Source of the DNA: Aliarcobacter skirrowii CCUG 10374
GTDB lineage: Bacteria; Campylobacterota; Campylobacteria; Campylobacterales; Arcobacteraceae
Length of the DNA: 64,000 nucleotides
Assembly: GCF_003544835.1 (NCBI RefSeq)
Contig: NZ_CP032099.1
Coordinates: 62,001 to 126,000 of the forward strand
Direction: 5' to 3'
Part shown: piece by piece, positions 48,848 through 51,746 of the stretch
Layout of the letters: the number at the start of each line of letters is the position of its first letter
How positions within the stretch are numbered: the stretch's first letter is position 1
The notes under the pieces: generated by a model
What the model was told of the DNA's origin: nothing
Databases searched by the model: none
What the model saw: only the letters and a program-made list of their open reading frames with translations
Position numbers and translations under genes: made by a program

Positions 48848-49942
48848 CTATTTTACAAGTTTTGCAAACTCTTTGTATATTAAAGAGTTTGAAATTGGAG
48901 TAAATTCACTACTTAAAATATCCTTGTTTTTATATTTTAAAGCTACAGCACTATTATTAAAAAGTTTTAAAGAGATAGCTTCTGCAAGATTTTCAAAATC
49001 TTTTAGAGAATACTCAGTGTTAATTGCGTATATTTCAACATTCTTTACACCTTTTATAGGGTGGCTTCCAGATTTAATAGATTTTATCTTTTCAAGTTTT
49101 GCACCACTTGCAAGAGCAAGTAAATAGTGTCCTAATCCAACAGCAAAAATTGGAATATTTGCATTTATTAGCTTTTCAATATTTTTAATCTCATCTTGAT
49201 ATATATTTGGATTTCCAGCACCACTACTTAAAACAACTCCACCAATTTGTTTATCTTGATATTTTTTGATTATCTCATCAGGGTTTGTATTATAAGGTAC
49301 CACTTCAACTTCAAGCTCTGCTTCAACTAGTTCGTTTAAGAATGATTTTTTAACTCCAAAATCAATAACAACAACTTTTTTATCACTCATAACAGCTTTG
49401 TTATAATCTTGAAGTTCATCATTCCAAGCACCAGACTTGTGAACATATGGCTCTTTTGTTGAACTATCTTTGATAAAATTAATCTCATCATATTTTTTAG
49501 CTTGGCTTAAAAGTTTTGCTAATTCATCTTTTGAAGATATCTTTGTTGATGCAATCATCATTAAACTACCTTCATCTCTTACAGTATGAGTTAAGAATCT
49601 TGTATCAATATCACAAATTCCAATTACATCTTGCTCAACTAAAAACTCTTTTAAGCTTTTATTAGCTCTGTAGTTTGAGTATTCATCATGATAATTTCTA
49701 GCAATTACACCAATACAATGAGCTTTAGAGCTCTCCATATCTGCACTGTTTGTTCCAGAGTTTCCTACTTCAGTAGATGTAAAATTGATAAATAATCCAG
49801 CATTAGATGGGTCTGTTATTAACTCTTGATGTCCAAAAGTTGTATTATTGTAAACCAGCTTACCAATAGCAGTTTTATCTGCACCAAATGATTTTGCTTC
49901 TAAAAAAACACCATTTTCTAAATATATATAAATTTTTTGCAT
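48848..49942 (-). CDS. carA: carbamoyl-phosphate synthase small subunit CarA, glutaminase site degenerate
   Basis: 364 aa, full length, with a normal N-terminal domain (FGHQELITDPSNAGL, CDIDTRFLTHTVRDEG). The C-terminal class I amidotransferase has lost its catalytic residues. The nucleophile elbow, normally GICLGHQ, reads AVGLGHY with Gly269 where Cys269 sits in E. coli. The His/Glu pair of xHPE is replaced by SSEFTPIS near 344-351, and the oxyanion loop SNGPGDP reads SSGAGNP. It should therefore not hydrolyse glutamine. CarB may use free ammonia with this protein as a structural partner, or a second CarA may exist. It overlaps the DUF507 gene by one base. Confidence 0.85.
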   Translation of the reverse strand: MQKIYIYLENGVFLEAKSFGADKTAIGKLVYNNTTFGHQELITDPSNAGLFINFTSTEVGNSGTNSADMESSKAHCIGVIARNYHDEYSNYRANKSLKEFLVEQDVIGICDIDTRFLTHTVRDEGSLMMIASTKISSKDELAKLLSQAKKYDEINFIKDSSTKEPYVHKSGAWNDELQDYNKAVMSDKKVVVIDFGVKKSFLNELVEAELEVEVVPYNTNPDEIIKKYQDKQIGGVVLSSGAGNPNIYQDEIKNIEKLINANIPIFAVGLGHYLLALASGAKLEKIKSIKSGSHPIKGVKNVEIYAINTEYSLKDFENLAEAISLKLFNNSAVALKYKNKDILSSEFTPISNSLIYKEFAKLVK

Positions 49943-50493
49943 TAGATTAATCCTCTTTTAATTAGCTCCTCTTCATAGAGTCTATGATATACCATATCAT
50001 ACTCATCTGTTCCAGGAATCAATTTTCTTTTGTAGTTTTTAAGTTTACTTAAAACCTCACTATCTGCTCTTTCAAACCCTTTTATAAAGTCATCCATCGA
50101 ACCAAATATCACATTTTTAACTTGGTTGTCTGAACATGTAAAATGAATATAATCCTCCTCCCATAAAAAATCAATAATTTTGTGAGCAATATCAGAAAAT
50201 CTATCTTCGTTATCTAAAATTACACCAAAATCATTTGCAAGCCTTTTTTTAGTCATCCAAAAAAGTTGCCGTCTATCAGCATTTAAATACTCAATCTCTT
50301 CCTCTTGAGCATCTAAAATCTCTTCAACTTTTTCATTTAAAGCCATCTCTTTTTCTATATCTTCATCTAAAATTCTCTCAATTTGTTCTTCAATACTAGC
50401 TTTATCTTTTCTTACTTCTATAAAGTCACAAGATACTAAATCTCTTGTAATTCTTTTGGCAACATACGCTGTATGATGTAATCTTAATCTCAT
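49942..50493 (-). CDS. DUF507-family protein
   Basis: 183 aa, highly charged and helical, with an acidic run of Asp/Glu around residues 40-75. The opening MRLRLHHTAYVAKRITRDLV and the closing VYHRLYEEELIKRGLI fit the DUF507 family, found next to carA in other Campylobacterota. No known activity. It lies two bases after purA and overlaps carA by one base. Confidence 0.78.
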   Translation of the reverse strand: MRLRLHHTAYVAKRITRDLVSCDFIEVRKDKASIEEQIERILDEDIEKEMALNEKVEEILDAQEEEIEYLNADRRQLFWMTKKRLANDFGVILDNEDRFSDIAHKIIDFLWEEDYIHFTCSDNQVKNVIFGSMDDFIKGFERADSEVLSKLKNYKRKLIPGTDEYDMVYHRLYEEELIKRGLI

Positions 50494-50495
50494 TA

Positions 50496-51746
50496 TTAGC
50501 CCCTTAAAATAGTATCGTCTCGTTCTGGTGAAGTTGAAATAATTCCAACTTTTACATTTGTTATCTCTTCAATTTTTTCTATATATTTTTTTGCATTTAT
50601 TGGTAAATCTTCATATTTTCTAATTCCAACAACACTATCCCAACCATCAATCTCTTCATAAATAGCTTCAACACTATCCATATTTGAAGGCATATAATCA
50701 ATTCTGTTTCCATTATAATTATATGCTACACAAATTTTAATTTTATCAAAGCCATCTAAAACATCTAGTTTCATTAAAGCTAATTTATCACAACCATTTA
50801 ATCTACTTGCATATCTAACTGCAACAGCATCAAACCAACCACATCTTCTCTTTCTTCCTGTAACTGTTCCAAACTCTTTTCCAACTTCACCCATAGTTTT
50901 TCCATAATCTGTGAAATCTTCACTAGGAAATGGTCCATTTCCAACTCTTGTACAATAAGCTTTTACAATTCCTGTAATTTCACCTATATCTTTTGGATTA
51001 AGTCCAAGACCTGTACAAGCTCCTGCACTAACTGTACTTGAAGATGTAACATATGGATAAGTTCCATGGTCAATATCTAAAAGTGTTCCTTGAGCACCCT
51101 CAAGTAAAACTCTTTTATTATCTTCAATAGCTTTCCAAACCATATTTGTAGTGTTTGTTATATATGGTGCTAAATTAGAGCTATAAGTTTCAAGCTCATT
51201 TAAAAGCTCTTTTTTCTCTGGAGTTTTAATCTCTAAAACATCAAAAATAGCTCTATTTTGTTCAAAATAATCTAAAATATCATCACAAAGTTTTGCTGGA
51301 TTTAATAAATCACCTGCTCTAAATCCATTACGGCTTACTTTCTCAGCATAAGTTGGTCCAATTCCTTTTCCAGTTGTTCCAATAGCTTTATCACCTTTTA
51401 ATCTCTCTTTTGCTTGATCAATTAAAGCATGAAAAGGCAAATTTAAATGAGCTTTATCAGAGATGTACAATCTTCCTTCTAAGTTATCAAATTGGCTCAT
51501 CTCTTTTAAAATATTAAGTGGAGAAACAACAACCCCATTTCCTATAATATTTATAGCTTTTTTATTTAAAATTCCTGAAGGAATAAGTTGAAGCGCATAT
51601 CTAACTCCATCAACCCAAATTGTATGTCCTGCATTGTGTCCACCTTGGCTTCTACAAACCATATCATACTTTTGTGCAAGCATATCAACAATTTTACCCT
51701 TGCCTTCATCTCCCCATTGAATTCCAACAATAACATCTGCCTTCAT
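50496..51746 (-). CDS. purA: adenylosuccinate synthetase PurA
   Basis: 416-aa GTP-dependent ligase joining IMP and aspartate. Marks: [12 protein letters not shown] (11-21), [40 protein letters not shown] and [15 protein letters not shown]. It sits in a minus-strand operon between hisZ and the DUF507 gene. Confidence 0.97.

Follow-up and report, generated by a model that had tools for sequence, protein, structure and literature searches.

The only carA gene of Aliarcobacter skirrowii CCUG 10374 encodes a small subunit of the essential enzyme carbamoyl phosphate synthase (CPSase); the glutaminase active site of this subunit is lost, and the same state is found throughout a clade of 13 species. 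As this site is gone and the dead subunit has been kept under selection, carbamoyl phosphate would probably be made from free ammonia. We propose that these bacteria most likely possess an ammonia-dependent carbamoyl phosphate synthase with a catalytically dead, retained CarA. Literature searches returned nothing on CarA pseudoenzymes or on the carbamoyl phosphate synthase of Arcobacter or Aliarcobacter.

All coordinates are positions in the 64,000-nt stretch of DNA analyzed, hereafter called the window, unless a chromosome position is given (in Mb or for a genome-wide match). The carA gene (48848..49942, minus strand) encodes 364 amino acids from an ATG start without stops, as the first-pass annotation had stated when it described the frame as whole at full length. 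A genome-wide search identified it as the sole copy in the closed 1.97 Mb genome, which consists of one contig and is 100% complete. The protein combines a small-chain domain with a glutaminase-dead class I GATase domain. The former (PF00988) was recognized with 122.9 bits, against a cut-off of 27, while the match to the latter (PF00117) was weaker, at 71.9 bits. The N-terminal CPSase domain (codons 1-150; 49493..49942, minus strand) is the better conserved part, with 77% mean identity within the clade. Directly upstream and overlapping carA by 1 base lies a gene for a DUF507 protein (49942..50493, minus strand), a conserved neighbor to which, to our knowledge, no function has been ascribed, preceded by purA (50496..51746, minus strand). 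The order purA-DUF507-carA is common to species with a dead and with a canonical CarA; it is kept across the Arcobacteraceae and also occurs in other Campylobacterota, with longer gaps between the genes.

The overall architecture of CarA is retained. The best matches in a PDB sequence search were E. coli CarA structures, and an AlphaFold model built from a 35-row alignment (mean pLDDT 88, pTM 0.88) keeps the CarA fold, with a TM score of 0.89 to E. coli CarA (1cs0_B) and of 0.79 to human CPS1. The protein passed the broader CarA model PRK12838. It scored 266.7 bits with TIGR01368, which describes the glutamine-hydrolysing small subunit, and thus fell below the curated cut-off of 307.35; its clade mates scored 276, compared with 442.6 for canonical Aliarcobacter CarA.

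We aligned the window CarA with 96 canonical full-length sequences, namely E. coli CarA and 95 others from Arcobacteraceae and other Campylobacterota, some species being represented twice. The three catalytic positions that the first-pass annotation had reported as lost are indeed replaced (C269G, H353T and E355I), together with Q273Y, P242A, D244N and N294S, and a six-residue deletion, S357-D362, removes Pro358, Gly359 and Pro360 of the tunnel wall (numbered as in E. coli). All the affected elements lie on the minus strand, and the three motifs already described read as reported. The oxyanion loop is SSGAGNP instead of the canonical SNGPGDP (49208..49228), where the clade has fixed P242A and D244N and kept G241 and G243. 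The nucleophile elbow is AVGLGHY (49124..49144), where codon 269 was confirmed as GGA (Gly, 49136-49138) in place of the catalytic Cys codon and the glutamine-binding Q273 has become Tyr. The former His-x-Glu strand is SSEFTPIS instead of SVQHHPEA (48890..48913), with Thr at His353 and Ile at Glu355. The GSHP loop (canonical GNHP; 49058..49069) is invariant in the clade and contains the least confident residues of the model (292-295). The deletion of the tunnel-wall loop follows directly after the former His-x-Glu strand (48889/48890). This loss of the SPGPH(E/D) loop had escaped the first reading of the sequence and is as constant as that of the Cys.

Across the clade, site 269 is Gly in 13/13 species, His353 is replaced by Thr, Ser or Asn, and Glu355 by Ile, Thr, Val or Pro. 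In comparison, Cys269, His353, Glu355 and the SPGP loop are all present in 96/96 canonical sequences. A sequencing or assembly artefact has a negligible probability, as 13 species share this state and their assemblies range from closed to draft genomes and include a MAG. Class I glutaminases carry a Cys at the nucleophile elbow, and we know of no exception. The residues S239, H272, K202, S47 and N311 are retained in the dead CarA and could in principle support an alternative nucleophile preserving glutaminase activity. However, no conserved Cys was found in the GATase domain across the clade, the His, the Glu and the S357-D362 loop are gone, and Q273 is missing from all but the earliest branch, which makes this possibility very improbable. 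Because the defining residues were checked and are absent, the window CarA should not be classified among the glutamine-hydrolysing CarA proteins.

The first-pass annotation had suggested either that carbamoyl phosphate is made from ammonia or that a second active CarA exists, the dead protein having turned into a subunit with a structural or regulatory role. No second carA was detected in the complete genome. The only other match, a weak one at 1,641,553, belongs to a glutaminase of the TrpG/PabA type, which carries the motifs GICLGHQ and FHPE, so a second CarA is excluded, and synthesis from ammonia is left as the best reading, one that we infer. Apart from CarA, five class I glutaminases were found (TrpG/PabA-type, GuaA, PyrG, HisH and PurQ), and each retains its Cys; judged by these residues, the loss of the glutaminase is therefore specific to CarA. 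The presence of five intact enzymes raises the question of replacement in trans, in which a different amidotransferase, such as the TrpG/PabA-type protein, or else a non-homologous amidase would dock on CarB and feed it NH3 from glutamine, and the dead CarA would serve as a scaffold. Nevertheless, all five are accounted for by their own pathways, and the genome contains neither a second CarA-like protein nor an extra class I GATase. We regard such a replacement as improbable.

The large subunit is complete. The carA and carB genes are separate, lying on the chromosome at 0.11 Mb and 1.27 Mb, respectively, and the genome search that the first annotation had called for found a single, full-length carB (1,081 aa) scoring above both NCBIfam cut-offs. 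All the residues checked in the catalytic sites, the carbamate tunnel and the ammonia gate (including gate residues C232, A251 and A314) are unchanged, the positions being those of the E. coli enzyme. Two consumers of carbamoyl phosphate are encoded, one ornithine carbamoyltransferase (OTCase) and one aspartate carbamoyltransferase (ATCase), and no carbamate kinase match in the genome exceeded the family cut-off. Carbamate kinase was thus rejected as a bypass; the matches to the amino-acid-kinase family were weak, stayed below this cut-off and occurred in both canonical and dead-CarA species. With OTCase and ATCase present and neither a second carA nor a carbamate kinase found, the gene content indicates that carbamoyl phosphate is required and that CarB is its only visible source.

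To assess the distribution of the loss, we examined the 31 species genomes of the GTDB genus in our collection. One carA gene each was recovered from 30 of them, the exception being a 54%-complete genome. The whole glutaminase site is absent in 13 of the 30 species and canonical in the other 17. The window CarA matches the 13 dead-site species, its own included, at 64-75%, and the 17 canonical species at about 53%. The 13 species correspond to 17 dead-CarA records, some of which are one assembly present in two collections. The group includes A. vandammei, A. vitoriensis, A. cryaerophilus gv. crypticus and a MAG named Lapin; the CarA of A. caeni is canonical. In maximum likelihood trees the dead-CarA group formed one clade with both CarA (100/100) and CarB (100/100), and since it is monophyletic in both, these sequences are most simply explained by a single origin. 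The alignment of related species proposed by the first-pass annotation thus places the loss as lineage-wide within one 13-species clade. Horizontal replacement of carA was ruled out by the conserved neighbors and the identical grouping of CarA and CarB. One further record (L146) apparently without the site proved to be a sequence cut by a contig end.

The first branch of the clade, the MAG G005 (L014 / L067), is an intermediate stage of the loss. Its Cys, His, Glu and loop are already absent and its His-x-Glu strand reads SVGFNPPS, while Gln273 is kept (GLGHQ). As this early-branching genome retains Gln273 without the triad and the loop, their loss probably preceded the filling of the pocket by Tyr or Phe at position 273. 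Among more distant Campylobacterales, two genomes, G038 (L035) and G044 (L045), yielded a full-length CarB and no CarA match; both are nominally 99-100% complete and fragmented. In the family of G044, CarA is present in 6/9 genomes, and its missing CarA is probably an assembly gap. Given the fragmented assemblies and the relatives of G044, most of which have CarA, we make no claim that either is a CarA-free case.

The dead CarA is under relaxed yet clearly present constraint. The median pairwise dN/dS of the GATase domain was 0.33 in the clade, about four times the value in canonical species (0.075), and that of the N-terminal domain was 0.19 compared with 0.10, about twofold. On the stem branch of the clade, CarA accumulated 0.86 changes per site and CarB 0.10. 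This elevated rate and long stem are what would be expected of a CarA on its way out, with CarB alone using ammonia and carA persisting as a slowly decaying remnant. However, the frame is intact and full-length in 13/13 species, the median dN/dS values are still 0.19-0.33, and those of the GATase domain fall to 0.14-0.23 for the closest pairs. Moreover, the former pocket (oxyanion loop, elbow and GSHP loop) is better conserved than the remaining columns of the domain, 17/27 being invariant against 32/140 (p 1e-4). Slow decay is consequently unlikely, although less so than the in-trans replacement, and the earlier view that the gene is not simply decaying is supported by the intact frames and the purifying selection across the 13 species. 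The conservation of the former pocket may hint at its continued use; we read it only as a hint because a fold constraint on glycine turns may explain part of it.

Changes in CarB accompany the loss. At sites otherwise invariant across canonical Aliarcobacter, other Campylobacterales and E. coli, five residues are changed in 10/10 dead-CarA sequences (A118V, Q262A, T279S, A323S and T540N), while the reverse comparison gave one such site. All five lie in residues 1-553 (5/241 invariant sites, against 0/184 in the second half; Fisher p 0.07), the half that comprises the carboxyphosphate and oligomerization domains. The wall of the ammonia tunnel at the interface is formed by CarB R265 with CarA P360/H361 and G359; in the dead-CarA clade these CarA wall residues are absent, and the Q262A change in CarB adjoins R265. 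The carboxyphosphate and oligomerization domains are the two that contact CarA (PMC6245113), and the clustering of the changes there is only suggestive of co-adaptation. A tentative extension is a coordinated evolution of the two subunits into an ammonia-specific CPS, in which the dead pocket would be reused as an ammonia entrance or regulatory site and the CarA-facing surface of CarB retuned; we consider this possible, at somewhat less than even chances.

In the ammonia-dependent enzyme that we favor, CarA, having wholly lost glutamine hydrolysis, would form a complex with CarB and persist in a structural or allosteric role, holding the first synthetase domain of CarB in working shape. Free cytosolic NH3 would be taken up by CarB, its most likely point of entry being the CarA-CarB interface where the S357-D362 loop is missing, and would then pass the conserved gate (C232, A251, A314). 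The resulting carbamoyl phosphate would feed pyrimidine and arginine synthesis. In E. coli, a CPSase with a blocked or perforated tunnel loses its glutamine activity but still works when ammonia is supplied from outside, and both activities disappear when the gate is mutated (PMC4655335); in the dead-CarA clade the gate is retained and the glutaminase end is lost. The ammonia demand of the E. coli enzyme is very high and probably unphysiological (PMC6245113), so either NH3 would be bound better here or the habitat would supply ammonia. Genomes of the dead-CarA clade encode 0-1 ammonium transporters (PF00909) and those of canonical species 1-4, a reduction that fits an ammonia-rich life, as one evolutionary contrast confounded by smaller genomes. 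Three dead-CarA species (G009, G023 and G005) carry no ammonium transporter.

Compared with E. coli-type CarAB, the enzyme shares the two subunits, their folds and the catalytic and gate residues of CarB, and differs in a CarA that lacks the Cys-His-Glu triad, Q273 and the S357-D362 loop and scores below the TIGR01368 cut-off. A functional parallel may be animal CPS1, the mitochondrial, ammonia-dependent and N-acetylglutamate-activated enzyme of the urea cycle, which also kept a GATase-like domain and lost the nucleophile. In human CPS1, the nucleophile position is Ser294 and the gate residues Cys648/Ala667/Ala729 are retained (PMC4655335). The best-supported reading of this comparison is that the dead-CarA enzyme works like CPS1 and is not a CPS1. 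CPS1 is a fused chain of 1,500 aa, whereas the Aliarcobacter subunits are separate, and the pathways fed by the dead-CarA enzyme would be those to pyrimidines and arginine. The loss is also deeper in the dead CarA, where the His, the Glu and the loop are gone as well, while Gly293 is kept; in CPS1 this Gly is replaced by Gln, which blocks the old tunnel.

If this reading is correct, the dead-CarA clade would be a natural exception at a step where bacteria are not supposed to depend on free ammonia, and its canonical sister species within the genus would provide built-in controls. The clade would open to testing the conversion of a channelled amidotransferase into an ammonia enzyme, for which animal CPS1 and point mutants of the E. 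coli enzyme have so far been the models, as well as the role of a glutaminase subunit beyond ammonia production. E. coli CarA C269S (1c30) and G359F (1m6v), laboratory versions of related lesions, both came out near the top when the CarA model was compared with known structures; these are point mutants, whereas the state of the clade is a naturally fixed combination.
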